A stretch of 64,000 bases of DNA from Dietzia sp. JS16-p6b (GTDB taxonomy: Bacteria > Actinomycetota > Actinomycetes > Mycobacteriales > Mycobacteriaceae): positions 1,088,001 to 1,152,000 of the forward strand of contig NZ_CP024869.1 in assembly GCF_003052165.1 (NCBI RefSeq), read 5' to 3'. The translations under genes and the position numbers were made by a program. This document shows, piece by piece, positions 45,830 through 64,000 of the stretch. How positions within the stretch are numbered: position 1 is the first letter of the stretch; each line of letters begins with the position of its first letter. The notes under the pieces were generated by a model that was given only the letters and a program-made list of their open reading frames with translations, made no database searches and was not told the origin of the DNA.

Positions 45830-46764
45830 CGGAGCCACCGCTGGGGTCCGCCGCCTGTGGTCAGATCGGCGAGCAGCAGCGACGCGGCGGTGACGCCGGC
45901 GGCCACGGTGACCAGTGTGGCGACCGGGACGGTGTCGCGGTTGGCGATGAGGGTGACGAGCAGGCTGCCGGCGCCTGAGTATCCGAACGCCACCTCCACG
46001 ACGAGCGCCGCGCCGATGAGGCCGGGCACGGCCAGCGCGCAGAGTTGGACGATCGGACCCGCCGCCCCGGGCAGCAGGTGGCGGACGAGGACGGCCAGGG
46101 GCGGGATCCCGGCCAGTCGTGCGGCCCGAACATGTGGGCGCGCGGCCTCGGCGGCCACCACGGCGCGGACGGTCCGCTGCAGCCACGCACCGACGGCCAA
46201 CCCTGCGGTGAGCGCCGGGAGCACGAGGATCTGCGGCCGGTCCAGTGGGCTCCCGCCCAGTGGGACGAGCGAGACCGGTGGGAGCAGGCCGAGCCGGACC
46301 GACAGGACCGACACGAGAATCACGGCGAGGACGAACTCCGGGGTGGCGAGCACCGCGGCCGCGGTGAGTGAGGTCGCCCGGTCCGTACGGGACCCGGCGC
46401 GGGCACCGGCGAGCACCCCGCCGCCGAGTCCGGCCACCACTGCCACGGGGATCGCCGCGAGCAACAGCAGGCCCGTTCGAGCCAGGGGCTCCCTGATCTG
46501 ATCGACGACAGGCGTGCCCGAGACCGAGAGTCCCGGGTCACCCCGGAGCATCCCCGCCAGCCACTCGGCAAAGCGCTCGGCCACCGGGAGGTCGAGTCCG
46601 AGCTCGGCCCGTCGCCGGGCGAGCCAGGCGGCGTCGGTGGTGACGTATGACGCCGTGGCGGCATCTCCGGGGAGTGCGTCGACCAACCAGAACGCCAGCA
46701 CGACGGTGACCGCCAAGGTGAGGAGCGTCTGGGCGATCCGCGCCGCGGCGCGTCTGGGCGTCAT
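45826..46764 (-). CDS. ABC transporter permease, DppB/NikB-like
   Basis: 312 residues, about six helices. The large periplasmic segment after helix 1 (RRRAELGLDLPVAERFAEWLAGMLRGDPGLSVSGTPVVDQI) is diagnostic of DppB/NikB. The coupling loop HVRAARLAGIPPLAVLVRHLLPGA is present. ATG 46764 shares one base with the stop of the receptor gene (TGATG), so the operon is tightly coupled. Confidence 0.92.
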   Translation of the reverse strand: MTPRRAAARIAQTLLTLAVTVVLAFWLVDALPGDAATASYVTTDAAWLARRRAELGLDLPVAERFAEWLAGMLRGDPGLSVSGTPVVDQIREPLARTGLLLLAAIPVAVVAGLGGGVLAGARAGSRTDRATSLTAAAVLATPEFVLAVILVSVLSVRLGLLPPVSLVPLGGSPLDRPQILVLPALTAGLAVGAWLQRTVRAVVAAEAARPHVRAARLAGIPPLAVLVRHLLPGAAGPIVQLCALAVPGLIGAALVVEVAFGYSGAGSLLVTLIANRDTVPVATLVTVAAGVTAASLLLADLTTGGGPQRWLR

Positions 46765-48290: not shown

Positions 48291-48342
48291 GAGAGTGGTG
48301 ATCCTTAGGTGAGTGGGTGGTGACGGGTGGGGTGGGACTGCG

Positions 48343-49290: not shown

Positions 49291-49365
49291 GGCGGCTCCC
49301 TGGTGGTGGTGCGAGGACGCGCGGACCCCCCTTCCAACAACGGGGAGACGGGCAACGACTGTAGA

Positions 49366-49402
49366 GACTCTATTGATAACGAGACTCATTATCAATAGAG
49401 TC
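49366..49402. promoter_or_regulatory. 37-bp palindromic operator with Fur-type core between divergent operons
   Basis: GACTCTATTGATAACGAG (49366-49383) and CTCATTATCAATAGAGTC (49385-49402) are inverted copies matching at 17 of 18 positions around a central A. The inner 19 bases, GATAACGAG-A-CTCATTATC, agree with the classical Fur box GATAATGAT-A-ATCATTATC at 16 of 19 positions. It is strikingly AT-rich for this genome. It lies 64 bases before the first NRPS gene and 75 bases before the flavoprotein gene, so one bound repressor could control both operons. Which Fur-family protein (Fur, Zur, Nur) binds is unknown. Confidence 0.82.
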
Positions 49403-49466: not shown

Positions 49467-52400
49467 ATGCCGTCGAGTTGGTCCGTGGTCGAAGCTGCTG
49501 TCTGCGACGTCCTGGAGGTCGACTCGGTGGGCCCGGGGACGCTGGTGGACCTGGGGCTGAACTCGCTCTCGGCGGTGCGGCTCCAGCGGCTGCTGGTGGA
49601 GCGCACGGGGGTGAGGATCCCCCTGCGGGACTTCGTCGGAGACATCGACCTGACGACACTCGAGCGGAGATGTGCGGCCGGGCCGGTGTCCGCGGAGAAG
49701 GTGGCCGCGGAGGTGTCGACGGCGATGACCCCCGCCGACGCGGGCGGTCAGGAGGTCCCGGATACGTTCGCTCTGACTCCCGTACAGGGCACCTATTGGG
49801 TCGGCCGGGGTGACGACTACCCGCTCGGCGGCGTCTCGACGTACTTCTACTCCGAGTACGAGTTCGTGCTGCCTGCCGGGACTGACGCCCTCACCACCGT
49901 GGGAGAGCTCGAGTCGGCGTGGAACCGCGTGGTGGCCCGCCACCCGATGCTCCGGGCGGTGGTGGGACGCGACGGCGTGGGCCGGGTGCTCGACGATCCG
50001 GGGGCCCACCGGTTCGAGATCGTGGATCTCCGCTCGCACCCCGACCCACAGGCTGCCGAGGATGAGGCGCGGCAGGACCTGTCCCACCGTCGCGCGCCCG
50101 CCCACCGATGGCCGGTGCACACGTTCGCTGCCGTAGTGCGGCCCGACGGGTCCCTGGTCCTGTGCGTGGGGTTCGATGTGTTGCTCATCGACTTCCCCGG
50201 GATACGGCGAGTGCTCGACGAGTGGGGTTCGGAACACCGGCACGAACGCTCGGGTGAGAGCGCGGAGGGCCGCGGGGTGAGGGCGGCGCCCCCGTCTGCC
50301 GTGCCCCCACCCGCCCTGCCACGCACCGAGGCCGCCGAGCGGGACGCCATGGAGTTCTGGCGCGGGAGGGCGCAGGACCTGCCGGGTGGGCCGTGGGACA
50401 CCACCCACCTTCGGGCCGATCAGCTGACCCCGCCACGGTTCCGGCGGTCGGAGGGCCGGGTCGGCTCCGACGTCTGGGAGGATTTCCGCGTAGCGGCCCG
50501 GGCGTGGGGTGTCTCGCCCACGGGGGCGTTGGCGGCGTTGTTCGCGGCCGCGCTCCGGCGCTTCGGCGCCCGGGAGCGCTTCTGCCTGGTCACCACACTC
50601 TTCGACCCCGAGGCCCGCGAGGACGCGGGCGTGGGGGACACCACCCGGACCGCTCTTCTCGACACCGGTCACACGGGGTGCGCCGAGGGCTTCGTGGACT
50701 ACGCCCTCCGGGTGACGCGCAACTTCTGGGACGCGGTGGACCACAGCGCGGTGCCTGCATCGCGTGTGGTCGGCGAGTTGTTCGGGCCGACGAACGGGAT
50801 CCCCGAACACCCTGTCGTCTTCACCTCCTCCGTAGGGGACCGCGCCGGGTCCCGCACGGACGCCTGGCTCGGCCGACGCGGGTTCGGGGTGTCCCAGACT
50901 CCCCAGGTCCTGCTCGACGCCATCCACTGGGAGGAGGACGACGCGCTCGTCCTCGCCTGGGACCACGTGGTCGGGGCGGTCGACGACGGCGTCGTCGACG
51001 GCATGCGCCGCGCGGTCCAGAGGGCCGTCGAGGTACTGGCCCGCGACGAGGCCGCCTGGACGCGACCGGGTCTGTTTCTCGACCCCTGGGTCCGTACCCC
51101 GCGGCCGCGACCGGTGGCCTACGACTCCGGCCCGGGTCTGCACGACCCGGTGCTGGCGGCGCTGGACGCGGACGGGACGCGGCGCGTGGTCTCGCAAGGG
51201 GACCGCGTCGCGGATGCCGACGAACTCGCCTCCATCGCTGCGTGGACCCGCGGTGAGCTGTACTCCAGGGGGGTCACACCCGGGGAGCCGGTCCTCGTCC
51301 TGCTCGGCAAGTCGGTCGAACAGATCGGCATCGTCCTCGGGATCACCTCGGCCGGGGCCGCCTACGTGCCCGTGGACCCGGCATGGCCGCTCACGCGCGT
51401 GGAACGTATCGCGGCCCGAGCCGGCGCCCGGGTCGCTGTCGCCGCGCAGGGGACGGACATGCCCGACGGGGTCACGGCGATACCCGCCGTGGTCCAGCGG
51501 CCTGCGGACGATGCGGTTCGTCCCGGTCCCGCACCCGTCGAGGGGGCCGGACTTGCGTACACGATCTTCACCTCGGGCTCGACGGGAGAGCCCAAGGGCG
51601 TCGCCATCGAACACGCTCAGGCCAGGACGACGATCGACGACCTGGCGCGCCGGTTCAATCCCGGTCCGACGGACGTCGTCCTGGGGTTGTCCGCGTTGAG
51701 CTTCGACCTGTCCGTGTGGGACATCTTCGGCGGCCTGTCCGCCGGCGCGCGACTGGTCCTGCCCGAACGCGGCTCGGAGGCCGATCCCGAGCACTGGCTG
51801 CGCACGATCGAGACCGAGGGCGTCACGGTCTGGAACTCCGCGCCTGCCCTGGCCGAGATGCTCGTCGACTACGCGGAATCGGATCCCGAGCGCGCGCGCA
51901 CCGCGCTGGGCTCGCTCAGGCTGGTCATGATGTCCGGTGACTGGATCCCGGTGACGCTGCCGGATCGACTCCGCGCCCTCGCCCCGCATGCCGTCGTCGT
52001 GAGTCTCGGCGGGGCGACGGAGGCCTCCATCTGGTCGGTTCACCACGTCATCGGCGACGTCCATCCGCAGTGGCCATCGATTCCCTACGGCACGGCGCTG
52101 GACGGGCAGTGGTTCCGCATTCTCGACGGCCCGGACGGGGAGCCGGTCCCGATCGGAGTCGCGGGCGAGTTGTTCATCGGCGGCGACGGCGTGGCGCGCG
52201 GGTATCTGGGCGACGAGGAACAGACCGCGGAGCGGTTCCGGGTCCACCCCGTCTACGGCGAACGCCTCTATCGCACCGGCGACGAGGGGATGTGGTTGCC
52301 CGACGGGACGATCCGGTTCCTCGGTCGCGTCGACCGACAGGTCAAGATCAACGGCTATCGCGTGGAGCTCGGAGAGATCGACGCAGCACTCACGCGCCTC

Positions 52401-55211
52401 GACGGGGTGCGTGCGGGAGTCTGTAGTGCGGTCGACGGCCCCGGCGGTGGCAAACGCCTGGTCGGGCATGTCGCGCTCACCCCGCAGTCCGGACTCGACC
52501 AGCGTGCGATTCGCGCCGCCCTCCGGGAGGCGCTTCCGGCGTACATGGTTCCTACCGCTGTCCTGATCCACCGGGAGCTACCGGTCACAGCGAACGGCAA
52601 GATCGACCACAAAGCGCTTCCGGACCCCTTCGCGAGTGCCTCGTCGTACTCTGCCGCGTCGAGCCCAGCACCGTCGAGTCCCGCCTCGTCGACCCTGGAC
52701 TCGTCGCCCCCCGCCTCGTCGACCCCAGCACCGGCGACGTCCGCGCAGGCCGAACCCGCGGCGTCTCGGCCGGAGGCGCTCGCAAGTGGTTCGGCAGGCT
52801 TGGCACCCGAGCTGGCCGCAGTGGTCCCGGACGGTGTGGATCCGGCGCTCGAACCGCTGGCTGCCGGTCTGGACTCGCTCGCCGTGGTGCGCATAGCGAA
52901 TCTCGTCGAGGACCTCACCGGCTCCCGGCCGGATCTCGAGGAACTCCTGGCGACACCGTTAAACCGGATCCTCCGCGACGACCCGGTCCCCGAGCCCGCG
53001 ATCCAGTCCGATCAAGATGCCGCGGACCTTCCGGCCGCCTCCACGCCGGCCCCGCCCGGCCACGCGCCGCAGGTCCCGGCCCTCCCCGCGCCGCCGGCCC
53101 CGCACGATTCGGGCACGGACCTTCTCGATGTGGCCCGTGCCGGCTCCGGTGTGGAGGTGACGATCGCCGCTGGAGACGGCCCACTCGGATCACAGCTGCT
53201 CGCGGCCGGTCGGTGGCTGAGCCGGATCGAGCAGGCCGCAGCCGAGGAGGGCCTGGAGGCGGAGGCCACGGCCGGTGGGCCAGACCACCTCGTCGTGCTG
53301 CGCCTCGGCCGGAGGACCGCACCGCCGTCGGACCGCGCATCCCGCCCCTCAGGCCCAGCTCAGACGCTCACGCCCGAGCCCGCCATCGCGGAGCCCCCTG
53401 AAACGGTGGCCACGAGCGCCCCTCTGACAGAGATGCAGGTGGCCTATCTCGTCGGCCGTGCGGACCCGTGGTTGGGCCGCCCGGTCGCGCCGCGCTATCG
53501 GACCGAGGTCGAGGTGGGCGGTCTCGACGTCCCGGCGCTCGAGCGGGCGTTGGACACGATCGTCGATGCCCACCCCATGCTGTCGGCGCGAGTCGACGAC
53601 AACGGCCGGCAGGTCCTCGACACCGCGGCCCGGCCGCGACTGCAAATCGAGGACCTGAGCGTGGCGACGGACGCCGAGGTGCGCGCCGAGCGTGAACGCC
53701 GCCGAGCAGAGGAGATGTCCCGGATCCACGACCCCCAGAGCGGGCGGCCCTGGCTCGAGCTCCGTGCGGTGCGGTTACCGGCGCCCGCCGCGGAGGTCTC
53801 CCGATGGATGGTCGTGCTGATTCTCGACATGCTGTTCTGCGACGTCCGTGGAGCGGAGATCATCGCCCGTGACCTGACCGCGGCGTACCGGGGCGACCCC
53901 GTCGACCGACCCCAGGGTGCATTCCTCAGCTGGGCTGAGGCCCGAGCCGGGGCGGCGCAGGGGGACTCGGCGCTGCCGGATTCGTCGCAGGCGGGGGCAC
54001 CGAGGCCGCGCGTCCTCCTGCCGGTCCGCCCGCCCGAGAGCTCGCGGTTCACCCGTCGACGCCGCCAGCTCGACCCGCGCACCACCACGGAGTTGATTCG
54101 GCGATGTGCAGTCCACCGGGCCACCCTCGACGCGGTCCTCGTCACCGTGTTCGCCGAGCTCCTGGCCACCGATGACGGGCACCGACCCCCGGTCGTGGTG
54201 ACCGTCCTCGACCGCCCCGCCGAGCATCGGGACGTCGTGGGGGAGTACACCTCGACCGTCGTGCTGGATCCCCCGGAGGGCCGGTCCACGAGCGAGCGTG
54301 CCCGCGCCGCGGCGACCCGTCTACTCGAGGGCGTCCGTGATCTCGGACGCGACGGATCCGGCCACGGTAACACCCGGATCCGCGAGCATCTCCGTTCGGG
54401 CAGCGGCACCGGCGTGCTCCCCGTGGTCTACTCCTCCGGTCTGACCGGGTGGACGGGCGGACCGGCCGCGTGCGATGCGCTGGCGCAGCTGGGTGAGCCG
54501 GTCCACTCGATCAGCTCGACGCCGCAGGTCCTGATCGATCTCCAGAGCTTCCGCGACAGCGACGGTTCGCTGCTGCTCGTCCTCGACGCGGTGGAGGACG
54601 CATTCCTCGATGGCGTGCTCGACGCGGTCGCCGATGTTCTGGCCGCGACGGTGACGACGCTGGCCGACGGAGACGACCGCTGGCACGAGCCCGGCTTTCC
54701 CTCCACTGCGACGCCAGGAGTACCGCGACGCGATGTCGCCGAACTGGGTCGTCGCCGATCGACGACGATCCGGGGACGTCTCGCGGTCGAGGGGGACGAC
54801 GGCGACCTGCTGACCGTCGTGCGCGCCACGGTCGCCGAGGTGCTCGGGAGGGCCCCGTCACACGACGAGCTCGACCGGGGCTTCTTCGAACTCGGGATGA
54901 CGTCGATGGATCTCGTCCGCTTCCGCCGGGTACTCGCCGACCGAGGGCACCGGGTGGAGCTCGCGGAACTCTTCGCCCACCCTGACATCAGATCGCTCGC
55001 CGCGGGGATGCAGGCCGCACCAGCCCTGAGCCCCGAACCGATCCGGGAACCCAGCCCGAGCGTGAACCCGGCCCAGAACCCGAACGTGACCCCACACGCC
55101 GACCCGGACCGATCCCGGCCCGCCATCCGCCCCGATGCGCACGACCCGCTCGCGCAGGCCCGTGAGCGCGGGCGTCAGCGCCGCCGCATCCGGCAGGAGA
55201 CCAATTCATGA
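49467..55211 (+). CDS. Nonribosomal peptide synthetase, ArCP-Cy-A-PCP-Cy-PCP (HMWP2-like)
   Basis: 1914 residues. Domains: aryl carrier protein 1-70 (S33 in LGLNSL); Cy1 from about 102 (LTPVQGTYWVGR; D237-x4-D242); adenylation about 560-1050 (TSGSTGEPKG; binding-pocket residues by eye DLWNMSLIWK, close to the Cys code; K1045 in NGKID); Ser/Pro linker; PCP1 (S1137 in GLDSL); an unassigned stretch 1160-1310; Cy2 from about 1318 (D1454-x4-D1459); PCP2 (S1813 in GMTSM). The order equals yersiniabactin HMWP2, but without the methyltransferase-like insert in the A domain. It should condense an aryl acid with two cysteines and cyclise them to thiazolines. ATG 49467 follows AGAGG; a GTG at 49449 is also in frame. 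Confidence 0.93.
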   Translation: MPSSWSVVEAAVCDVLEVDSVGPGTLVDLGLNSLSAVRLQRLLVERTGVRIPLRDFVGDIDLTTLERRCAAGPVSAEKVAAEVSTAMTPADAGGQEVPDTFALTPVQGTYWVGRGDDYPLGGVSTYFYSEYEFVLPAGTDALTTVGELESAWNRVVARHPMLRAVVGRDGVGRVLDDPGAHRFEIVDLRSHPDPQAAEDEARQDLSHRRAPAHRWPVHTFAAVVRPDGSLVLCVGFDVLLIDFPGIRRVLDEWGSEHRHERSGESAEGRGVRAAPPSAVPPPALPRTEAAERDAMEFWRGRAQDLPGGPWDTTHLRADQLTPPRFRRSEGRVGSDVWEDFRVAARAWGVSPTGALAALFAAALRRFGARERFCLVTTLFDPEAREDAGVGDTTRTALLDTGHTGCAEGFVDYALRVTRNFWDAVDHSAVPASRVVGELFGPTNGIPEHPVVFTSSVGDRAGSRTDAWLGRRGFGVSQTPQVLLDAIHWEEDDALVLAWDHVVGAVDDGVVDGMRRAVQRAVEVLARDEAAWTRPGLFLDPWVRTPRPRPVAYDSGPGLHDPVLAALDADGTRRVVSQGDRVADADELASIAAWTRGELYSRGVTPGEPVLVLLGKSVEQIGIVLGITSAGAAYVPVDPAWPLTRVERIAARAGARVAVAAQGTDMPDGVTAIPAVVQRPADDAVRPGPAPVEGAGLAYTIFTSGSTGEPKGVAIEHAQARTTIDDLARRFNPGPTDVVLGLSALSFDLSVWDIFGGLSAGARLVLPERGSEADPEHWLRTIETEGVTVWNSAPALAEMLVDYAESDPERARTALGSLRLVMMSGDWIPVTLPDRLRALAPHAVVVSLGGATEASIWSVHHVIGDVHPQWPSIPYGTALDGQWFRILDGPDGEPVPIGVAGELFIGGDGVARGYLGDEEQTAERFRVHPVYGERLYRTGDEGMWLPDGTIRFLGRVDRQVKINGYRVELGEIDAALTRLDGVRAGVCSAVDGPGGGKRLVGHVALTPQSGLDQRAIRAALREALPAYMVPTAVLIHRELPVTANGKIDHKALPDPFASASSYSAASSPAPSSPASSTLDSSPPASSTPAPATSAQAEPAASRPEALASGSAGLAPELAAVVPDGVDPALEPLAAGLDSLAVVRIANLVEDLTGSRPDLEELLATPLNRILRDDPVPEPAIQSDQDAADLPAASTPAPPGHAPQVPALPAPPAPHDSGTDLLDVARAGSGVEVTIAAGDGPLGSQLLAAGRWLSRIEQAAAEEGLEAEATAGGPDHLVVLRLGRRTAPPSDRASRPSGPAQTLTPEPAIAEPPETVATSAPLTEMQVAYLVGRADPWLGRPVAPRYRTEVEVGGLDVPALERALDTIVDAHPMLSARVDDNGRQVLDTAARPRLQIEDLSVATDAEVRAERERRRAEEMSRIHDPQSGRPWLELRAVRLPAPAAEVSRWMVVLILDMLFCDVRGAEIIARDLTAAYRGDPVDRPQGAFLSWAEARAGAAQGDSALPDSSQAGAPRPRVLLPVRPPESSRFTRRRRQLDPRTTTELIRRCAVHRATLDAVLVTVFAELLATDDGHRPPVVVTVLDRPAEHRDVVGEYTSTVVLDPPEGRSTSERARAAATRLLEGVRDLGRDGSGHGNTRIREHLRSGSGTGVLPVVYSSGLTGWTGGPAACDALAQLGEPVHSISSTPQVLIDLQSFRDSDGSLLLVLDAVEDAFLDGVLDAVADVLAATVTTLADGDDRWHEPGFPSTATPGVPRRDVAELGRRRSTTIRGRLAVEGDDGDLLTVVRATVAEVLGRAPSHDELDRGFFELGMTSMDLVRFRRVLADRGHRVELAELFAHPDIRSLAAGMQAAPALSPEPIREPSPSVNPAQNPNVTPHADPDRSRPAIRPDAHDPLAQARERGRQRRRIRQETNS

Positions 55212-58200
55212 CCCGTCCCGTCGATCCGCGACTGGCGCACCACGAGTCGGACATCGCCGTGATCGGCATGTCCTGTCGCCTGCCCGGCGCGCCCGACGTC
55301 GAGGCGCTGTGGAGGCTGCTGCTCGACCGCAGGGAGGGGGTCGTGCGAACCGATCGCGAGGCCGCGCGTCGCGCCGGCGCACCCTCGGAGCTCGTCGACC
55401 ACCCGGGCTTCGTGCCCACCGGGTCGGACCTCGGCCCGATCGACGGCATCGATCTCGCCGCGTTCGAACTCAGCCGGCACGAGGCCAGGTACCTCGACCC
55501 GCAACACCGGGTCTTCGCGGAGGAGGTGTGGCACGCGCTCGACGACGCCGGCCACGGGCACGGCTCAGGCGTGGACCGGGTGGGTTTGTTCGCCGGATGT
55601 TCTCCCTCCGCGTATCTCCACCACGCGTTCCGGCAGTCCTTCGACCCGTCCGGCGGGACCGATCCGGCCCATGCCATGCAGATCGCGCTGGGGACCATGC
55701 CGGACTACCTCGCGACCGGTATCGCCTACCGGATGAACCTCACCGGGCCCGCGCAGACCGTGCTCACCGCCTGCTCGACCTCCCTGGTCGCGGTCCACCT
55801 CGCGGTGGAATCGTTGCGCAGCGGCGAATCGGACATGGCGGTCGCCGGTGGGGTCACCGTGCGGGTGCCGGCCTCTCACGGGTACGTCTACGTCCCCGAC
55901 GGGCCGTTCTCCGTCGACGGGCACACGCGGAGCTACGGCGACGGTGCCTCCGGAGCGGTGTTCACTCAGGGCGCGGGCGCGGTCGTCCTGCGCCGTTACG
56001 GTGACGCCGTGCGGTCGGGGGACCGGATCCGAGCGGTGATCAGGGGCAGTGCCGTCAACAACGACGGAGCCGCCAAGGCCGGGTTCGTGGTGCCGGGCGT
56101 CGACGGACACGCCTCGGTCATCGCCGAGGCACTGGCCGGCGCGGGCCTGGGGCCACGCGACATCGGATACGTCGAGGGGCACGGTACCGGCACCCGGATG
56201 GGCGATCCCGTGGAGGTCGCGGCGCTGCACAGGGTGTTCGGGCGGGCGGAGCGACCGTGGTGTCTGCTCGGCTCGATCAAGTCCAACATCGGGCACACCG
56301 AGGCGGCCGCCGGGGTCGCCGGCCTCATCAAGGCGGTGCTCGCGGTCGAGCGGGGAGTGATCCCGGCCTCGCTGCACTGCGCGGATCCCAACCCCGACCT
56401 CGGGCTCGCCGGCTCCGCCCTCCGCTGCGCCGACGCCCCGTCAGACTGGGACCCGGATCGGCCGCGCGTCGCCGGGATCAGCTCGCTCGGGTTCGGCGGC
56501 ACCAACGCGCACGTCGTGGTGGCGCACTCCGGCCGCACGCCGGACACCGATCCCGATCCCCGTCCGCAGCTGTGGCTCCTCGGTGCGGCCAGCCGCGCCG
56601 CGCTCGACGGGATGGTCTCGACCGCCCGGACCGCGGCGTCGGCGACCACCGGTGCGCCCAGCGCGACCGCGGTCCCCAATCTCGCCCACTCGCTCGCCAG
56701 TTCAGCCGGGCCCCGGGGGCTGCGGGCCGCACTCGTCGTCGACGGCGCCGACGGCACGGTGCTCGAGACGGTCACCGCCGCGGGCCTGGTCGAGACCCGG
56801 CCCCCCGCCGTGGTCGCGGCCTGCCCGGGGGGCGGCGCGCAGCGGACCGGGATGGCCGAGGATCTCTACGGCACGGAGCCCTCGGCCAGGGCGCTGATCG
56901 ACGACCTCGCCGCGGTCGCCCGGGAGATCCTGGGGGATGACCTGCGTCGGGTGTGCTGCCCGTCCGCCGCCGGGGTGGTCCCGGCCGATGCCGACGACCC
57001 CCTGCTCGGCCTCCCCGCGTTGTTCGCCACCACGGTGGCCGCCGGGCGGCTGTGGTTGCGAGGCGGGCCGCGGCCCGATGCCTGGATCGGCCACTCCTCG
57101 GGGGAATACGCCGCCGCGGTCCTGTCGGGAGCGCTCGAGGCCGTCGAGACGATGCGGCTCGTCGCCCGGCGGGCCCGGGCCCTGTCCACACTCGAGCCCG
57201 GAGGTATGGCGCGCGTGCGGCGCGGTGCCGAGTCGATCCCGGATCTGCTGGATCGTTTCCCCGGGCTCGAGATCGCGGCGCAGAACTCGCCGCGGTCGTC
57301 AGTGCTGGCGGGATCGACCGCGGTGATCACCCGGCTGGTCGATGAACTCGGTGACGACGCCACGCGGGTCCGGATCTCCGTCCCGGGGCACTCGACGCAC
57401 GTGGTCTCGGCGATGCCCGAGCTCCGCGATGCGGCCTCAGGTCTCACAGCACACGATCCCCGGGGTCTGCTTTACAGCTGTCTCACGGCGGGGCCGGTCG
57501 CCGCGGAACAGGTCGGTGATCCCGAACACTGGGCCGACCACCTGCGCGGTTCTGTGCGCTTCGACGAGACCCTGGCGCGGATCGCCGATGACCTGGGGGG
57601 AGCGTTCACCGTGGTCGACCTCGGGCCCGGCTCGGTACTCGCCTCCCTCACCCGCGAGTGCGCCCCGACCGGGCTGCAGAGGATCGTCACGCTGGCCGAC
57701 GACGACGGCGGCCTGCGGCGCTCTGGGGTGTTGCGGGCCCTCGGCCAGGTGTACGTCGCCGGCCGTGATGTGCACCTAGACGGGCTCCTGACCGGACGAC
57801 GCGGGGCGCACCCGCTGCCGCGCTATCCCTTCGACCGCACCCGGGCCTGGGCCGAGCCGGACGGGACGACCCCGGCGGCGAGCCCGTCCGAACTGCGCCG
57901 CAGGGCCCGTCGCGATCGGGTCGCGCCGTCGGACGTCGACCACATTCCGCACGGGGCGGTCGTCTGGCGCGCCGAAGGCCCGCCGCTCGGTGCTCTGGAC
58001 GGACTCCGCACCGCCATCCAGGACGCACTCGCGTCCGGTGGTCCTCTCGTCGTCACGGTCGACGCCCGCGCGGGTGATCCCGAGCTGACGGCGGCCGTGC
58101 TGGCCGCGTTGCCGTCGGTGCGTGCCGAGCACCCCGAGCTCGACCTGGCCGGGATCGTCGTGCACCACGGCGACCCCGATCGCGCCGGGCGCGCTCTGGC

Positions 58201-61200
58201 GGCCGACCTGCACCGTCACGGGCCGGCCCGCTGGCCCACCACGGTCCACCTCACCGGGGACTCGTGGCAGGACGAGGTCGTCGTCGACCATCCGGCGTCG
58301 ATCGAGCCGTACGAGCCGGACGAGGGCCCGGACCAGGCGCCCCCGCGCGTCGTGGTGATCGGCGGACTCGGCACCGTGGGACGCCACCTCGCCTCCTCCT
58401 TCCTCACTGCCGGGGCAAGCGTCACCCTGACCACCCGTCGTCATGCGGGAGATATCGCCGCCGAGCTGGCCCCCCGGGGCGCATCCGTCGTCACCTGGGA
58501 CGGCCTCGACGCCACCGCCCTCGCCGAGATGGTTCGCGCTCTCCCGGATGGCGGCCCACTGGTCGTTGTCCAGTGCACCGGGGTGGTGGGCAGGGAGAGC
58601 TTCGCGACGGTCCAGGAATCGGGGACGCAGACCCTGCTGGCCCACGATCGTGCGCGGGTGCAGGTCTGGAACGCCCTCGAGGACGCGGTGGCGCAGCTCG
58701 GCGAGCGCGCCCCCGATGTCCTCGTGGCTATGTCGTCACTGGCCTCCGTCTCCGGTGGCTTCGGTCTGGCCGCGTACGCCGTGTCGTGCCGGGCTGTGGA
58801 ACTGCGCTGCGAGAACGCCTCGCCGGCAGCGCGGACCCGGCGGATCGCGGTGGCCTGGGACGGATGGCGGACGACCGACGCCGATGACGCCGCATTCGCC
58901 CGGAATTTGCTGAGACATGCGCTGGATCCGGACTACGCCTCGACGCTGCTGAGGCGGATCGCCGCCGGACCGTCCCGGGGAACGGTGATCGCCAGCCGCC
59001 GTCCGCTCACGATCGAGGGTGCGGATGTGGACCGCGCGACCGGCGCCGAAGTCTCCCTGCAGACCGCCGGAACACCATCGACCGTGGTCTCCCCGGGAGG
59101 CTCGGAGAGCTCGGACGGGCAGGAGGCCCGTGCGTCGCTCTCGCGTCTGTGCGAACTGTGGGCTGACGCGCTCGGCCTCCACCGGGACGAGGTCGGCGCC
59201 GACTCCGATTTTTTCGCCCTCGGTGGTCAGTCCCTGGCCGCGACACGACTGCTCGGCACTCTCCGCGACGAGCTGGGACTCGACCTGCGGCTGCGAGACC
59301 TCCTCGACGATCCGACGCCGGGGGGTGTCGCGGGAGCCGTCGTGTCGGATCCGGGTCGGGAGCAGGAGGACTCGTCCGGGGGCTCTGGCACGGAGGGTTC
59401 TGGCACGGAGGACTCTGGCGCGGAGGACTCTGGCACGGGGGGCGCGGGCACGGGGGATGCGGACATCGAGCCCGATCCCACAGACCCGGCGCCGTTGACG
59501 CCGGTCCAGCGTGCGTACCTCCTGGGCCGCGAGGACGACTACGGCATCGGTGGCGCGGCGTGCCACAGTTTCGTGGAGTTCCGTGCCCGTTCACTGGATC
59601 CGGATCGGTTCGAGGCCGCGTTCCGCACGATGGTGCAGAGGCACCCGATGCTGCGGACGGTCGTCGAGCTGGACGGGATGCACGAGGTCGACATCAGGCC
59701 CGAGGATTTCCGGCTCGACGTGACCGACCTGAGGCAGTCCGACGACCCCGAGACCGGGCTCCGGCGGTGGCGTGACCGCCTGTCGACGCGGCGCGCCCCG
59801 GCGTCACGGTGGCCGCTGGTCTGCCCGTACCTCGCGATCACCGCCGACGCGGTGCACGTGGGGTGGAGCGTCGACGTGCTGGTCTGCGACGCCGACAGCT
59901 TCGGCCTCCTGCACTCCGAGATGGGAGTGGTGTACCGCGGCGAGGACCCTGGCCCTGCTCCGCAGCGCACCTTCGCCGACCACGTGCGCAGTAGCGCGGC
60001 AGGGGGAGTCCCGGCTGGTCCCGGGCAGGACGAGGACCGCCGTTGGTGGGCGGAGCGGGCCGGACAGCTACCCGCGGCGCCCGAGATCACCGGCGGGGCT
60101 GCTCCCGGTGGGTCGGCGTCGCCCGGCGAGGCGGCCCCCGGCGGGGCGGGGTCTCCCGAGCAGGTGCCGGCCGGGGGCTTCGCCCGGCACCGCTGGACCC
60201 TCGGCTCCGAACTGAGCGAGGCGGTGGTCCGCACGAGCGCCCGCCGGCGGACCACGCCGGCCGCGATGCTGCTCACCGCGTATGCCCACATGCTCCGCGA
60301 GATGTCCGGCCGATCGGACTTCTCCGTCATGCTCACGACCTTCGGGCGTCCGCCGGAGATGGCCGGGGTGATCGGGGAGTTCACCGAGCTCTCCCCGGTG
60401 GCACTGCACACCTCTGCTGATCCTCACGCTTCTCTTCACTCGGTGGCCGAGTCTCTGTTCGAGACGCTCGACCGGTCGAGCGTCTCGGGGATCGACGTCC
60501 TGGCCATGCGTAGTGCCCAGGAGGGTCGGCGGTTCTCGATACCGGTCGTGTTCACCAGCACCCTCGGCGGTGAGGACGAGTCGGGCTTCGACGACGACTG
60601 GAGCGGCGAGCTCATCGGCGGGGTCAGCCAGACACCCCAGGTGGTCTTGGACCACCAGGCCTACCGCTGGGGTGGGAGCATCATCGCCCAGTGGGACTAC
60701 CTCGCCTCGGCGGTCGACGCCGACCGACTCGCGCGGGCCGTCGCGGTGTACGGGGACGCGGTGCGCACCCTCGTGGGGGACACCGGCGCGGACCCGGCAG
60801 ACCAGGCAGACCCGTCGGGCCAGGCAGACCCGTCAGGCCAGGCGGACCCATCGGGCCGGGCGGCCGACCCGGCGGCGACGCCACTCGACCTGGTCCGGGG
60901 GGCCTGGGCCGAGGTGCTGGACCTGGACCCGGCCGAGGTCAGCGCGGATGCGGACTTCTTGGCACTGGGGGGCGACTCGCTCACCGCCGTGCGAACGGTG
61001 GCCGGCCTCCGAGCCGTCGGTGTCACGGTCCCCGTCGCCGACGTCCTCAACGGGGTGAGCCCCGAGGAGATCGCCCGCGAGGCGACAGCAGCAGGGTGGC
61101 GCATCGGCGATGCCGAACCCACGCCACTCGTCCGGGCGGAGCCGGGGCGGCCGTTCCCCCTGACCCCGCTGCAGCAGGCCTACTGGGTCGGTGCCCAGGG

Positions 61201-63739
61201 TGGCTGGCAGCTCTCCAACGACGCAGCGCACTTCGTCGTCGACTTCTTCGACCCGCTGTGCGACCCGGAAAGGCTCCGCGCGGCCGCTCGACGGCTCATC
61301 GAGCACCAGCCGATGCTCCGCGCGGTGGTCACCGAGGACGGCTACCAGCGCGTCCTCGATGCCGACGACCCCCGGCTCGGTGTCGATCCGGTCGAGATCG
61401 TGGACCTCACCGGGAGCCCGGACGACGAGGTCGCCCGAGCGATCGCCGACACCCGATCGGCCTGGGAGGTCGACGGGCCCGACCCCGAGCAGTGGCCGAC
61501 CTTCCGAATCCGGGCGCACCTGCTGCCCGGAGGCGGTGCCCGCGTCCATGTGGTGGCCGCGCTCGTGTTTGTGGACGGGTGGTCCTTCTACCTGTTCTTC
61601 GACCAGCTGCTCACCTTTCACGACGAGCCCAACGCCCACTTCCGGGCGCCCGAGGTGAGCTTCGCCGACCACGTGGCGACCCTCGAGGCGGGCGCGACGC
61701 GGCCGGCCGCACGTCGAGCACTGGAGAACTGGCGGCGCCGGCTGCCCGAGCTCCCGCAGGCCCCGCGCGTGCCCGTGCGGTCAGTGCCGGATCGGGTGCG
61801 GCGGATGGAACGCCGAGCCTTTCGGCTCGACGCCGACACCGCCGCGGCGTTCACCGAGCGGTGCCGCAGCGCCCGGGTCACCCCCGCGGCGGTGTTCGGA
61901 GCGGCGTACTCCCGCGCGCTCGGCGAATGGTGCGACCAGAAGCGATTCCTGCTCACCGTCCTGTACTTCAACCGCCCGCCGATCTCCGGCGACATCGACC
62001 GGGTCCTGGGCGCGTTCTCCTCGACGGTGCTGGTGGACGTCGCGGTCCCCGAGTCGTCCGACCCCGCGGTCCACGCCGGCGGCTTCGGGGACGCGGTCGG
62101 TCGCTCGCTCGACGACTCGGCGATCGACGGAGTCGACGTCGCGCGGGAGTTGTCGCGGCACCGGGGCACCCGCGGACTGGTCTCTCCGGTCGTGTTCACC
62201 TCGACACTGGGCTTCAGCGACCCCACGGCGCACTCGGTGACCAGGCGCATCGACCCGACCGACGTGTGGGAGCGGGTGCGCACTCCCCAGGTCCTCGTGG
62301 ACCTGCAGGTGGCGTCGGAACACGACCAGATCGTGTGCAACGTCGACTGCCCCGAGGGGGTCATCGATCCCGACGACCACCGGCGACTGATCGACCGGGT
62401 GCGGGCCTTCATCGACGACGTGCTGGCGGGCCGGGCCCTCGAACCCACCGAGTGGCCGCGGCCGGAACGGGAAGATCAGGACGGCTCCTCGCCGAGTGGC
62501 ATCACGGACAGCACCGGGCCGAGGCCCCTGCGGCCCGCCGGGGAGGCCACCCTCGCCCATGTCCGCGAGGCGGTGACGTCTCAGCTGGGGAGCACCCCCG
62601 GGGACTCGACCGACTTCTTCTCCGCGGGCGGGGACTCGCTCGGACTGGTGCGGGTCCTCGTGGATCTGCGCCGCCGCACCGGGCTGGTGGTGGCCCCGGC
62701 GGAGGCCGTGGTCGAGCCCACCGTCGAGCGCCTCGCGGCCCTGGTGGACGAGCGTCGCGAGGCCGATTCGGCGGAGCTCACCCGCGGGCCGGAGACGCCG
62801 GCCCACCACGCTGCGCCGGCCCGGGTCAGCACGCTCGATCCGGAGACCCACCTCGTGCCGATGTCCGAGTCCGGAGGTGGGCCCGTCTACCTGCTCCACC
62901 CGTCGGGCGGCGACATCCTGTGCTACTCCGACCTGGTCGCCGAACTCCCGGACCACCGCGTGCTGGCGCTTCCCGACCCCCGGTACTTCGACACCCCGAT
63001 GCCGGACGATCTCTCGCTCGTCGTGTGCGCCTACGCCGACCTGCTCGAGCTGGCCCACCGCGGCGAGGACCATCCGTTGGTGATCGGCGGCTGGTCGATG
63101 GGGGGCACCGTCGCGCACGACGTGGCCGTGGAGCTGCAGGGCCGGGGCGTCCGCGTGGGAGGGGTGATCATGATCGACTCGACGACCCCGGACCGTATCC
63201 GGCGGATCGCAGGCCTCGCTCCGGGTGAGGTCGACGCCGAGGTGGCCCTGCGCTACCTGCGATCCGTCCAGGCTTTCGCCGGAGACGGTTCCCCGACGGA
63301 GTCGTCGGTCGGGTCCGCCGAGACGTCGATCCGGCGAGGTATGGCCGCGGCCGCGGATCCCGGCGCCCGAGGGGACGTGCTCGCCGAGCAGTTGCGGGCC
63401 AATGGACTGGCCGCGACGGATGCCCGCCGGCGGCTGGAGGTGTTCACCTCCCACCTGGCAGGGCTCGCGGAGCATCAGGCCCGGTCACTCGAGGGCACCG
63501 GGGTGCCCGTCCTGCTGCTGCGCGCCGACGAGACCTCACCGGTGAACTCCGGCGTCGGTATGGGCGTGGACGACGCGGCGGGGTCGGAGGATCTGGGGTG
63601 GGGGGCCGCCCTCGGATCCGGCGCCACGATCCTCGGCGTGGACGCCCATCACTACTCGGTGCTCAGGAGCCCCGCCGTGGCGCGGATCGGGTCGGCGATC
63701 CGGGAGTTCCTCGCCGACGCGGCCGGGGCCGAGCGGTGA
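55208..63739 (+). CDS. Hybrid polyketide/peptide synthase, KS-AT-KR-ACP-Cy-PCP-Cy-PCP-TE (HMWP1-like)
   Basis: 2843 residues, ATG overlapping the previous stop (ATGA). KS 14-440 (C189 in TACSTS, then EGHGTGT and NIGHTEAAAG); AT about 535-860 (S630 in GHSSGEY); KR about 1040-1240 (GGLGTVGRHLASS; Y1190, with C1194 where Asn is usual); ACP S1342; Cy3 from about 1428 (D1556-x4-D1561-x2-S); PCP3 S1924; Cy4 from about 1982 (A2118 replaces the first Asp, D2123 and the Ser are kept); PCP4 S2477; thioesterase about 2560-2843 (GWSMGG S2630, D in LRADE, H in DAHHYS). It contains no adenylation or methyltransferase domain, so PCP3 and PCP4 must be loaded in trans. HMWP1 ends after a single Cy-PCP; here there are two. 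Confidence 0.93.
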   Translation: MTRPVDPRLAHHESDIAVIGMSCRLPGAPDVEALWRLLLDRREGVVRTDREAARRAGAPSELVDHPGFVPTGSDLGPIDGIDLAAFELSRHEARYLDPQHRVFAEEVWHALDDAGHGHGSGVDRVGLFAGCSPSAYLHHAFRQSFDPSGGTDPAHAMQIALGTMPDYLATGIAYRMNLTGPAQTVLTACSTSLVAVHLAVESLRSGESDMAVAGGVTVRVPASHGYVYVPDGPFSVDGHTRSYGDGASGAVFTQGAGAVVLRRYGDAVRSGDRIRAVIRGSAVNNDGAAKAGFVVPGVDGHASVIAEALAGAGLGPRDIGYVEGHGTGTRMGDPVEVAALHRVFGRAERPWCLLGSIKSNIGHTEAAAGVAGLIKAVLAVERGVIPASLHCADPNPDLGLAGSALRCADAPSDWDPDRPRVAGISSLGFGGTNAHVVVAHSGRTPDTDPDPRPQLWLLGAASRAALDGMVSTARTAASATTGAPSATAVPNLAHSLASSAGPRGLRAALVVDGADGTVLETVTAAGLVETRPPAVVAACPGGGAQRTGMAEDLYGTEPSARALIDDLAAVAREILGDDLRRVCCPSAAGVVPADADDPLLGLPALFATTVAAGRLWLRGGPRPDAWIGHSSGEYAAAVLSGALEAVETMRLVARRARALSTLEPGGMARVRRGAESIPDLLDRFPGLEIAAQNSPRSSVLAGSTAVITRLVDELGDDATRVRISVPGHSTHVVSAMPELRDAASGLTAHDPRGLLYSCLTAGPVAAEQVGDPEHWADHLRGSVRFDETLARIADDLGGAFTVVDLGPGSVLASLTRECAPTGLQRIVTLADDDGGLRRSGVLRALGQVYVAGRDVHLDGLLTGRRGAHPLPRYPFDRTRAWAEPDGTTPAASPSELRRRARRDRVAPSDVDHIPHGAVVWRAEGPPLGALDGLRTAIQDALASGGPLVVTVDARAGDPELTAAVLAALPSVRAEHPELDLAGIVVHHGDPDRAGRALAADLHRHGPARWPTTVHLTGDSWQDEVVVDHPASIEPYEPDEGPDQAPPRVVVIGGLGTVGRHLASSFLTAGASVTLTTRRHAGDIAAELAPRGASVVTWDGLDATALAEMVRALPDGGPLVVVQCTGVVGRESFATVQESGTQTLLAHDRARVQVWNALEDAVAQLGERAPDVLVAMSSLASVSGGFGLAAYAVSCRAVELRCENASPAARTRRIAVAWDGWRTTDADDAAFARNLLRHALDPDYASTLLRRIAAGPSRGTVIASRRPLTIEGADVDRATGAEVSLQTAGTPSTVVSPGGSESSDGQEARASLSRLCELWADALGLHRDEVGADSDFFALGGQSLAATRLLGTLRDELGLDLRLRDLLDDPTPGGVAGAVVSDPGREQEDSSGGSGTEGSGTEDSGAEDSGTGGAGTGDADIEPDPTDPAPLTPVQRAYLLGREDDYGIGGAACHSFVEFRARSLDPDRFEAAFRTMVQRHPMLRTVVELDGMHEVDIRPEDFRLDVTDLRQSDDPETGLRRWRDRLSTRRAPASRWPLVCPYLAITADAVHVGWSVDVLVCDADSFGLLHSEMGVVYRGEDPGPAPQRTFADHVRSSAAGGVPAGPGQDEDRRWWAERAGQLPAAPEITGGAAPGGSASPGEAAPGGAGSPEQVPAGGFARHRWTLGSELSEAVVRTSARRRTTPAAMLLTAYAHMLREMSGRSDFSVMLTTFGRPPEMAGVIGEFTELSPVALHTSADPHASLHSVAESLFETLDRSSVSGIDVLAMRSAQEGRRFSIPVVFTSTLGGEDESGFDDDWSGELIGGVSQTPQVVLDHQAYRWGGSIIAQWDYLASAVDADRLARAVAVYGDAVRTLVGDTGADPADQADPSGQADPSGQADPSGRAADPAATPLDLVRGAWAEVLDLDPAEVSADADFLALGGDSLTAVRTVAGLRAVGVTVPVADVLNGVSPEEIAREATAAGWRIGDAEPTPLVRAEPGRPFPLTPLQQAYWVGAQGGWQLSNDAAHFVVDFFDPLCDPERLRAAARRLIEHQPMLRAVVTEDGYQRVLDADDPRLGVDPVEIVDLTGSPDDEVARAIADTRSAWEVDGPDPEQWPTFRIRAHLLPGGGARVHVVAALVFVDGWSFYLFFDQLLTFHDEPNAHFRAPEVSFADHVATLEAGATRPAARRALENWRRRLPELPQAPRVPVRSVPDRVRRMERRAFRLDADTAAAFTERCRSARVTPAAVFGAAYSRALGEWCDQKRFLLTVLYFNRPPISGDIDRVLGAFSSTVLVDVAVPESSDPAVHAGGFGDAVGRSLDDSAIDGVDVARELSRHRGTRGLVSPVVFTSTLGFSDPTAHSVTRRIDPTDVWERVRTPQVLVDLQVASEHDQIVCNVDCPEGVIDPDDHRRLIDRVRAFIDDVLAGRALEPTEWPRPEREDQDGSSPSGITDSTGPRPLRPAGEATLAHVREAVTSQLGSTPGDSTDFFSAGGDSLGLVRVLVDLRRRTGLVVAPAEAVVEPTVERLAALVDERREADSAELTRGPETPAHHAAPARVSTLDPETHLVPMSESGGGPVYLLHPSGGDILCYSDLVAELPDHRVLALPDPRYFDTPMPDDLSLVVCAYADLLELAHRGEDHPLVIGGWSMGGTVAHDVAVELQGRGVRVGGVIMIDSTTPDRIRRIAGLAPGEVDAEVALRYLRSVQAFAGDGSPTESSVGSAETSIRRGMAAAADPGARGDVLAEQLRANGLAATDARRRLEVFTSHLAGLAEHQARSLEGTGVPVLLLRADETSPVNSGVGMGVDDAAGSEDLGWGAALGSGATILGVDAHHYSVLRSPAVARIGSAIREFLADAAGAER

Positions 63740-64000
63740 GCGGGACGGTGACGAGCGCCCAGGTCGACCGGGTGGACGCGTGGTCGGCGGTGTACGAGGA
63801 GGTCTACACCGACGGTCACGCCCGCGGCACCGCGGCCGACGGTCTCGAGGGGTGGGTCGACGCGCTGTCCGGTCGACCTCTGCCCGCCGAGATCATGTGG
63901 GAGTGGCGGGACGCCACGGTCGACCGGCTGCGGGGCCTGCGTCCGGTGCGCGTACTCGACGTGGGAACAGGCACCGGGATGATCGCCCGGGCCCTGGCAT
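63736..64000 (+). CDS. Stand-alone SAM-dependent methyltransferase, 5' part (runs off the window)
   Basis: 88 codons are visible. The GTG start overlaps the stop of the synthase gene (GTGA). After WSAVYEEVYTDG the sequence reads LPAEIMWEWRDATVDRLRGLRPVRVLDVGTGTG, the entry and SAM-binding motif I of the C-methyltransferase domains that are normally embedded in NRPS and PKS modules such as those of yersiniabactin and pyochelin. Here it is a separate protein, suggesting a trans-acting methylation of the same assembly line. The C-terminal part, and hence full confirmation, lies outside the window. Confidence 0.82.
   Translation, partial: MSGTVTSAQVDRVDAWSAVYEEVYTDGHARGTAADGLEGWVDALSGRPLPAEIMWEWRDATVDRLRGLRPVRVLDVGTGTGMIARALA

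Follow-up and report, generated by a model that had tools for sequence, protein, structure and literature searches.

A candidate metallophore locus on a yersiniabactin-type assembly-line plan beside a putative Zur-type operator in Dietzia sp. JS16-p6b

Locus organization

The window analyzed here (64,000 bp from Dietzia sp. JS16-p6b) contains two divergently oriented gene groups on either side of an inverted repeat (Table 1). Genome-wide searches covered the 3.72-Mb Dietzia genome, which consists of one contig. The rightward group is a six-gene operon running from gene 1 to a Cys-rich 140-aa protein, in which successive genes overlap by 4 bp and the start codons from the methyltransferase to the 140-aa protein are GTG, GTG, ATG, and ATG. 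The ATG was preferred as the start of gene 1 because in a second strain the GTG lying upstream falls out of frame. The methyltransferase gene is cut by the window end, and its remainder, which the initial annotation had expected beyond position 64000, was found to continue to 64836. The leftward group comprises a flavoprotein gene and an ABC importer; the open reading frame of the importer's solute-binding protein extends to 48599, with its first ~88 codons overlapping the neighboring gene, and from residue 91 on the protein shares 88% identity with its SLG310A2-38A2 counterpart. The zinc-type operator candidate, the divergent flavoprotein, and the divergent importer were all absent from the initial annotation.

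Table 1. Features of the locus in window coordinates; L005 denotes the numbering of the right flank.
Feature	Position	Strand	Remarks
Fused double ABC ATPase of importer	43626..45077	-	PF00005, two stretches
Importer permease, second subunit	44987..46186	-	BPD_transp_1; longest ORF, true start probably later
Importer permease, first subunit	45826..46764	-	BPD_transp_1
Solute-binding protein, family 5	46764..48335	-	SBP_bac_5, 188 bits; start approximate
FAD/CxxC thioredoxin-reductase-like (dithiol-oxidase-like) protein, 316 aa	48343..49291	-	Solved-structure matches
18-1-18 inverted repeat, putative Zur-type operator	49366..49402	.	Core TGATAACGAGACTCATTATCA at 49374-49394
Gene 1, NRPS T-Cy1-A(Cys)-T-Cy2-T, 1914 aa	49467..55211	+	
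Gene 2, PKS-NRPS KS-AT-KR-ACP-Cy3-PCP-Cy4-PCP-TE, 2843 aa	55208..63739	+	
Stand-alone methyltransferase, 366 aa	63736-64836 (= L005:736-1836)	+	Window ends at 64000
ABC half-transporter, first	L005:1833-3578		Same operon as synthases
ABC half-transporter, second	L005:3575-5371		Same operon as synthases
Cys-rich 140-aa protein	L005:5368-5790		Operon's last listed gene

Domain architecture of the synthases

Pfam searches combined with motif reading reproduced the two synthase genes and the domain orders initially assigned to them, as well as the proposed yersiniabactin-type plan with one extra Cy-PCP pair. The yersiniabactin synthases have the order T-Cy-A-T-Cy-T (HMWP2) followed by KS-AT-KR-ACP-Cy-PCP-TE (HMWP1); gene 1 is HMWP2-like and gene 2 HMWP1-like, and the two systems have in common the domain order and a single A domain, predicted in Dietzia to be of the cysteine type. 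The Dietzia locus differs from yersiniabactin in its extra Cy-PCP, its Zur-type operator candidate, and the lack of cis methyltransferases, none of which Pfam detected in gene 2, as had been claimed. Gene 2 is about 33% identical to irp1 across 60% of its length, and the front of gene 1 is about 29% identical to irp2. Homologous genes are 80–94% identical in two other Dietzia, which argues against a chance assembly.

Gene 2 carries the motifs TACSTSL (KS), GHSSGE (AT), and GWSMG (TE), and its KR, read by eye, is without the usual Lys and Asn. Pfam Condensation scores were 33.8, 60.2, and 72.1 bits for Cy2, Cy3, and Cy4 (cut-off 30.6), with Cy1 below the cut-off at 11.4 bits; the carrier following the A domain likewise fell below its own (17.7 vs 20.8). 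The Cy1-A stretch matched the solved FmoA3, BmdB, and PchE along its length, and its top-scoring solved chain was the gramicidin synthase LgrA, matched via the A domain. The EpoB, Irp2, FmoA3, and PchE chains matched best at Cy4, and Cy3 gave partial second stretches only. The motifs TPQVxxD and PVV(F/Y)(T/S)S are kept in all four Cy domains. Cy4 reads AxxxxDxxS, lacking the first Asp of DxxxxD, in each of three strains, although it retains TPQVLVD. All four Cy domains initially described are present, but not all of them need be active in thiazoline formation.

The A-domain code read by eye, DLWNMSLIWK, agrees at 8 of 10 positions with the cysteine code DLYNLSLIWK; the initial assignment to the cysteine type is therefore supported as a prediction.

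Methyltransferase, half-transporters, and 140-aa protein

The methyltransferase is indeed a separate gene and resembles methyltransferases embedded in NRPS adenylation domains, with 31–42% identity in one set of matches, 33–39% in a second, and 97 bits to 5wmm, of the thiocoraline type; unlike these relatives, it stands alone. In the second set, most matches stop near residues 254–291 of 366, and two extend to 317 and 365. Its original description as a detached HMWP1 domain was not borne out, since the relatives opened were of the A-domain-embedded kind. In the plasmid collection, which does contain irp1 records, 81 records matched it; among the 25 listed, 13 were named NRPS/condensation, 3 methyltransferase, and 9 were unnamed, none of the names was irp1, and the ten commonest genera of the matches did not include Klebsiella or Escherichia. 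Judged by the names of the listed plasmid matches, an HMWP1 origin is not supported.

CydD was the best NCBIfam model for both half-transporters, below its cut-off. The first half-transporter matched 6p6i (167 bits) among solved structures, presumably YbtPQ, the half-transporter pair of the yersiniabactin system; the Dietzia pair could be an exporter. The 140-aa protein had no Pfam match at E 1, no match in the plasmid collection at 0.01, and a single, meaningless NCBIfam match (0.23).

Divergent flavoprotein and importer

The flavoprotein has an FAD fold with a CxxC motif. Its best solved matches were 4ntd (138.6 bits; labelled thioredoxin reductase, and which we assume to be HlmI), GliT (128.5), and DepH (123.8), followed at nearly the same score by the uncharacterized 4fk1 (122.9) and 3fbs (115.8) and, lower, by 5n0j (75.2) and the thioredoxin reductase 5nii (65.3). 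Its CPFC aligns with the CPYC of 4ntd and DepH. The protein is therefore nearer HlmI/DepH/GliT than thioredoxin reductases, and a dithiol-oxidase role is predicted. No dithiol product is known at the Dietzia locus.

For the solute-binding protein, NikA-type models were best in NCBIfam (62 bits, where the cut-off is 600), and the best solved relatives were AapF (81 bits) and AgaA (76), with NikA at 54. The double ATPase gave broad matches below cut-off (CydD first at 248 bits, NikE 199), and for the second permease subunit the highest-scoring models were those of nickel/cobalt and nickel permeases, with scores far short of the cut-off. We assign the importer to the nickel/peptide ABC family, with family matches far below the curated NCBIfam cut-offs.

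These neighbors bear on the quite improbable reading that the product is a metal-binding antibiotic or ionophore, exported by the ABC pair, from which the dithiol-oxidase-like protein protects the producer. Such a role would fit the GliT/DepH-like neighbor and has a precedent in a Pseudomonas dithiol oxidase, described in PMC11317636 as protecting against zinc-chelating dithiol toxins and as induced by zinc starvation. However, beyond the flavoprotein gene the divergent group continues with an importer that depends on a binding protein, and the flavoprotein family includes proteins of unknown role (4fk1, 3fbs).

Putative Zur-type operator

The palindrome between the divergent operons covers symmetric back-to-back promoter-like elements. 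With search patterns derived from the sites themselves, its 21-base core had one other match within 3 mismatches in the whole genome, and the reversed-pattern control had none. This second operator-like site (3 mismatches) lies between aztA and aztB, in the promoter of the zinc-transporter locus aztABCD. In Corynebacterium glutamicum, the divergent znuB2/znuC2 promoter has the proven Zur site TAATGATAACGGTTATCATTT, with which the Dietzia repeat has in common the half-site TGATAAC, the one-base center, and, at the second promoter, the setting between divergent zinc-transporter genes; the Dietzia half-sites are, however, separated by 6 more bases than those of the C. glutamicum and S. coelicolor Zur sites given in PMC2823685. 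We infer a putative operator of Zur type; another Fur-family regulator is possible, as only two sites of this type occur in the genome. In comparison with SLG310A2-38A2, the repeat is kept at 32/37 positions and the rest of the promoter region at 113/136, so that this comparison gives no footprint, the repeat being no better kept than its surroundings.

Together with the transport genes, the metal-type operator candidate lends support to the metallophore function first proposed. Coelibactin offers a likeness, its genes being actinobacterial NRPS metallophore genes placed in the Zur regulon of Streptomyces coelicolor (PMC6103462). By description, coelibactin has a P450 step (PMC3430247), whereas the Dietzia locus combines a PKS module with an importer of family 5. 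Yersiniabactin also acts as a zincophore (PMC8636617).

Search for starter enzymes

The search for salicylate formation covered the salicylate synthase family, for which no gene of the genome exceeded the cut-off; the three Chorismate_bind genes were TrpE, isochorismate synthase, and PabB. None of 43 genome matches exceeded the DHB_AMP_lig cut-off for DHB/salicyl-AMP ligases, and there was no genome match to TIGR01761 for thiazolinyl imide reductase. The pocket Asn was present in one of 30 sources with an aligned residue (36 sources in all), and that one is 24% identical to the reference. The enzymes predicted to the right of the window, salicylate synthase, salicyl-AMP ligase, and thiazolinyl reductase, were therefore not found anywhere in the genome at family cut-offs, which further separates the locus from yersiniabactin. 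The initial annotation had named the absence of any aryl-acid-activating enzyme as counting against its reading, and this is largely what we observed; the aryl starter is not supported, and the term "aryl" is unproven.

One candidate salicyl-AMP ligase (C1:2897782-2899566), whose best solved match was the salicylate-AMP ligase 5wm2, was rejected as the starter enzyme: it has Ile at the pocket Asn position of the aligned ligases, adjoins an enoyl-CoA hydratase gene, and is present in 4 of 23 Dietzia genomes (E 1e-100), only two of which have at least part of the cluster.

A possible but unlikely explanation is a yersiniabactin-like iron siderophore, with a salicylate or dihydroxybenzoate starter that is exogenous or loaded by an unrecognized ligase and an operator of another Fur-family regulator. 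Yersiniabactin logic favors it, as does the operator core, which resembles the classical Fur box. Some metallophore clusters are also known from genomes that lack chelator genes altogether, as with equibactin and its exogenous precursors (PMC12971057). Against it stand the rarity of the pocket Asn, the second operator-like site at a zinc transporter, and the lack of any match within the window to an IdeR/DtxR-type iron box.

Distribution

Among 23 Dietzia genomes, 8 of them <90% complete, 2 had both synthases. D. natronolimnaea S-XJ-1 has only a deletion remnant, with an apparent 18-kb deletion by which the front half of the locus was seemingly lost. A gene 2 scan of the genome collection, which reaches no further than close relatives, found 3 loci, each of them in Dietzia. 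In the plasmid collection, 1350 records matched gene 2 and 306 the gene 1 front; identity was at most about 34% among the 20 matches listed for each, and every matching record was below 60%; the one Streptomyces plasmid match opened was annotated as a different PKS-NRPS cluster without these transport genes.

This patchy presence, the deletion, the KR deviations, the Cy4 change, and the lack of a starter enzyme in the genome would suit a decaying, non-productive cluster, which we nevertheless regard as very unlikely: JS16-p6b keeps the genes open, and three strains with gene 2 84–94% identical have the Cy4 change in common, suggesting that it is old or kept by selection.

No open-licence literature pairing Dietzia with yersiniabactin was found, and the listed titles and abstract openings on Dietzia siderophores/NRPS, actinobacterial thiazolines, zincophores, and dithiol oxidases describe no such locus. 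For Dietzia DQ12-45-1b, the available text of PMC8027190 names an iron-siderophore binding protein and no cluster like that of JS16-p6b. Dietzia is not mentioned in the accessible sections of a paper on metallophore genome mining (PMC12971057), and a salicyl-thiazoline metallophore, fatuamide, is described in those of PMC11877528.

Proposed function

We favor, with moderate confidence, a metallophore locus of two operons, with zinc as the likeliest metal, under a Zur-type repressor; the metal, regulator, starter, and structure are all inferred. The domain plan, the six-gene operon, the transport genes on both sides, the operator match at azt, the lack of an IdeR-type box in the window, and the coelibactin and yersiniabactin precedents argue for this reading; it is weakened by the lack, at family cut-offs, of a starter-loading enzyme, salicylate synthase, and thiazolinyl reductase in the genome, the possible exporter role of the ABC pair, the operator spacing, the azt mismatches, the below-cut-off importer, the KR deviations, and the lost front half in a relative. 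The product is probably a sulfur-rich, zinc-scavenging molecule and, as none of the usual aromatic-starter genes sought was found, likely new, with its first building block in question and the locus a variant of the yersiniabactin/coelibactin kind.

Under low zinc, the repressor would leave the operator and both operons would be transcribed. A starter would be loaded in trans onto the first carrier and cysteine by the single A domain onto the Cys carriers; Cy1 and Cy2 would add and cyclize two cysteines, the PKS module would add and then reduce a malonyl unit, Cy3 would add and cyclize a third cysteine, and Cy4 would add a fourth, perhaps without full cyclization. The methyltransferase may act on a carrier-bound intermediate. 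The acid released by the thioesterase would leave the cell, bind zinc and perhaps nickel or copper as well, and re-enter via one or both ABC systems. The [M+H]+ masses computed for such products are 523.0597 with a salicyl start, 537.0753 with an added CH2, and 541.0702 with Cy4 leaving its unit uncyclized; with a cysteine start, the corresponding values are 506.0477, 520.0634, and 524.0583.

If this zinc-controlled reading is right, Dietzia would have a thiazoline metallophore as a counterpart to coelibactin, following the yersiniabactin PKS-NRPS plan, and the locus would show how a starter can change or be lost, tie a dithiol-oxidase-like enzyme to zinc uptake, and supply engineering with a naturally trans-acting methyltransferase and one more Cy module. 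It would also lack the chelator genes that genome mining for such clusters mainly relies on (PMC12971057). These predictions are testable in Dietzia, a culturable, sequenced genus.

A distinctly unlikely elaboration is an all-cysteine oligothiazoline-polyketide with free terminal thiols, in which the A domain would also load the first carrier, Cy4 would leave the last cysteine open, and the dithiol-oxidase-like neighbor would close or guard the thiols. If true, the product would be a thiol zincophore that is switchable by redox state and controlled by zinc; we know of no description of such a molecule.

Assembly line

The cluster is real and metallophore-like and represents a new form within the yersiniabactin/coelibactin type, with its metallophore role being predicted. 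Domain analysis gave T-Cy-A-T-Cy-T for gene 1 and KS-AT-KR-ACP-Cy-PCP-Cy-PCP-TE for gene 2, and the domain search found no methyltransferase domain in gene 2. These orders bear out the initial annotation, which had read ArCP-Cy-A-PCP-Cy-PCP in the first synthase and an extra Cy-PCP pair without methyltransferase domains in the second. The start of gene 1 at 49467 was preferred because the GTG ahead of it does not lie in frame in Dietzia sp. SLG310A2-38A2.

Features of the cluster and of the zinc transporter locus (coordinates above 64000 continue the window numbering; L005, right-flank locus; L084, a further locus of the same genome)
Feature	Coordinates	Arrangement	Basis
FAD/CxxC protein	48343-49291	divergent from gene 1	solved-structure matches
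Gene 1 (NRPS, 1914 aa)	49467-55211	+ strand	
Gene 2 (PKS-NRPS, 2843 aa)	55208-63739	+ strand	
Methyltransferase	63736-64836	4-bp overlap with gene 2	
ABC half-transporter 1	64833-66578	4-bp overlap	
ABC half-transporter 2	66575-68371	4-bp overlap	
140-aa protein, five Cys	68368-68790 (L005:5368-5790)	4-bp overlap; operon end	
aztABCD zinc ABC transporter with AztD metallochaperone	L084:1638-6814		curated family models

Cy1 was identified by solved Cy-A proteins (FmoA3, 458 bits; BmdB, 442 bits; PchE, 424 bits), not by Pfam (11.4 bits); LgrA heads the solved matches for the Cy1-A stretch (461 bits) but aligns via the A domain. Cy2, Cy3, and Cy4 exceeded the Pfam Condensation cut-off. The top solved matches of the Cy3-Cy4 stretch all lay on Cy4 (EpoB, 166; Irp2, 157; FmoA3, 153; PchE, 151 bits), and Cy3 gave partial second stretches only, with Irp2 and PchE. 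By eye, the A domain gives the code DLWNMSLIWK; that for cysteine is DLYNLSLIWK. All six carriers retain the serine, with the post-A carrier falling under the Pfam cut-off, and TPQVxxD is intact in all four Cy domains. The DxxxxD motif is present in Cy1 (DVLLID), Cy2 (DMLFCD), and Cy3 (DVLVCD) and deviates in Cy4 (ALVFVD, also found in D. natronolimnaea and SLG310A2-38A2); in Cy2, Ser replaces Thr (PVVYSS); and the KR has GGLGTVG and the Ser/Tyr region but lacks, by eye, the usual Lys and Asn. Judged from these motifs, Cy4, Cy2, and the KR may be weak points of the assembly line.

Starter supply

The initial annotation had predicted an aryl-capped product, a salicylate synthase, and a thiazolinyl reductase. 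The three chorismate-using enzymes in the genome are TrpE, isochorismate synthase, and PabB, and no thiazolinyl reductase was found in the genome by its family model. None of the 43 genome matches to the DHB-AMP ligase model exceeded its cut-off. All 43 (35 loci) and the gene-1 A domain, 36 sources in total, were aligned to a reference from another Dietzia (G020), an aryl-AMP ligase-like protein in which the pocket Asn is present; a residue aligned at this position in 30 sources, and one of these, 24% identical to the reference, has Asn. An aryl cap is not to be stated as fact. A recent survey describes ten metallophore clusters whose chelator genes occur nowhere in the genome and, for equibactin, cites exogenous precursors as the source (PMC12971057).

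Methyltransferase and right flank

The methyltransferase gene, expected to run on past 64000, is complete there, and it and the three genes that follow each have their start codon at the 4-bp overlap; all four show 92–96% identity in D. natronolimnaea. The stand-alone protein (METHYLTRANSFERASE) had matches in 37 of 246 genomes of the class at 1e-12, its own included. At eight of eight loci examined, drawn from the 36 other genomes, the match starts approximately 60 residues past motif A8 of an adenylation domain in an NRPS, where embedded methyltransferases sit, and the best solved match is an NRPS (5wmm, 97 bits). Because of this position and match, the protein appears most like a stand-alone form of the A-domain-embedded type; its earlier description as detached holds for the separate gene, and an origin from HMWP1 is not supported.

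Among the best 60 of 246 solved matches of ABC half-transporter 1, eukaryotic two-domain transporters ranked on top, and the single-length chains among the matches listed included ABCB9 (170 bits), 6p6i (presumably YbtPQ; 167 bits), and CydC (153 bits). CydD was the top NCBIfam model for both half-transporters, under the cut-off. The five-Cys protein had no family match, is 96% identical in D. natronolimnaea, and is possibly metal-binding. Beyond the operon, approximately 11.2 kb of reduced GC (0.60–0.68 per kb; 68804-80004) adjoins tRNA-His (L005:17080-17157); approximately 0.9 kb stands there in D. natronolimnaea, and the tract is likely a genomic island.

Left operon

Outward from gene 1, the left operon encodes the FAD/CxxC protein, a family-5 solute-binding protein, two permeases, and a fused double ATPase. 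The FAD/CxxC protein matched 4ntd (which we take to be HlmI; 138.6 bits), GliT (128.5), and DepH (123.8), followed by the uncharacterised 4fk1 (122.9) and 3fbs (115.8) and then by 5n0j (75.2) and thioredoxin reductase 5nii (65.3). Since 4fk1 and 3fbs rank just behind the leading three, dithiol oxidation is a lead rather than a finding. Solved relatives of the binding protein were AapF (81 bits), AgaA (76), and, lower, NikA (54). Further left, the gene for a giant fatty acid synthase of type I, 3184 aa long, precedes and overlaps that for a phosphopantetheinyl transferase of the AcpS type (27668-37695).

Operator and proposed working

The region between the divergent operons contains an 18-1-18 inverted repeat with 94% complementarity, GACTCTATTGATAACGAG-A-CTCATTATCAATAGAGTC, that overlies TTGATA-17-TAGAGT promoter-like elements on both strands (3 matches vs. 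a mean of 0.0 in 50 shuffles). It is not clearly better conserved than its surroundings, because 32/37 bases are identical in SLG310A2-38A2 vs. 113/136 in the remaining promoter region. With up to 3 mismatches, the repeat-derived pattern matched the window once, at the repeat itself with 0 mismatches; 11 of 100 shuffles had at least one match at this loose limit. Across the genome, GATAANGANNNTCNTTATC at up to 2 mismatches gave two sites, and a pattern refined on both returned the same two at up to 3 (reversed controls, 0 each); a variable-gap pattern returned the cluster site only. The second site, of equal spacing, lies between aztA and aztB and overlaps the first part of the longest possible reading frame for aztB. 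Scores above the curated cut-offs were reached by AztB, AztC, and AztD, with AztA just short (210.4 vs. 220). An IdeR box consensus had no match within the 64-kb window. Zur site TAATGATAACGGTTATCATTT in the divergent znuB2/znuC2 promoter of C. glutamicum is backed by mutant expression and band shift (PMC2823685). The half-sites of the Dietzia operator stand 6 bases wider apart than in that site, which counts against a Zur assignment. The cluster operator is a putative one that resembles the Zur type.

Parts, gene order, operon structure, common promoter region, and operator resemblance are direct observations. In the proposed working, expression would be under zinc control and a starter would be loaded in trans. 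The single A domain would load cysteine, as the one A domain of HMWP2 does, with subsequent heterocyclisation; one reduced C2 extension and one or more methyl transfers would be made, and the product, released as an acid, would bind zinc and be exported and taken up again. Published work reports that yersiniabactin serves E. coli Nissle as a zincophore (PMC8636617), that coelibactin genes are part of the Zur regulon (PMC6103462), and that zinc starvation induces a Pseudomonas dithiol oxidase, either downstream of Zur or in parallel with it (PMC11317636). Given these precedents, the combination of zinc, a thiazoline metallophore, and a dithiol-oxidase-like protein seems plausible, not proved. 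Three features open the way to sharp, inexpensive tests: the zinc-type operator, the starter genes not found, and the dithiol-oxidase-like partner.

Distribution among Dietzia

The source genome is one contig of 3,720,309 bases, listed as 100% complete, from the genus Dietzia; the window spans its positions 1088001-1152000. Among 23 Dietzia genomes (15 at least 90% complete) queried with the Cy3-Cy4 stretch, three contained it: the source genome, D. natronolimnaea S-XJ-1, and SLG310A2-38A2, the latter two holding cluster parts on NZ_NTGA01000035.1 and on NZ_JAALDX010000451.1 and NZ_JAALDX010000236.1, respectively. SLG310A2-38A2 retains, at 69–88% identity, the flavoprotein, the binding protein, the first permease in part (the contig ends beyond), and gene 1; its locus is spread over several contigs, with gene 2 visible in pieces only. 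The S-XJ-1 contig fuses window positions 41,649 and 59,789, with the intervening 18.1 kb missing, and gene 1 had no match in the S-XJ-1 genome with the query that detected it in the source genome and SLG310A2-38A2. This locus looks like a deletion remnant of the cluster; an assembly error could instead possibly account for the gap. The junction (L029:15559-15574, S-XJ-1 locus) joins a Na/H antiporter gene to mid-gene 2, and the apparent deletion takes out the importer, flavoprotein, operator, and gene 1.

G020 was a fourth genome with a match, but to a different Cy NRPS. Its locus (L027:11840-19998) holds a different siderophore-type cluster. This includes the aryl-AMP ligase-like reference protein used above, in which the pocket position is Asn; a Cy-matching frame of 2000 aa; and another ORF resembling, by eye, an IucA/IucC synthetase.
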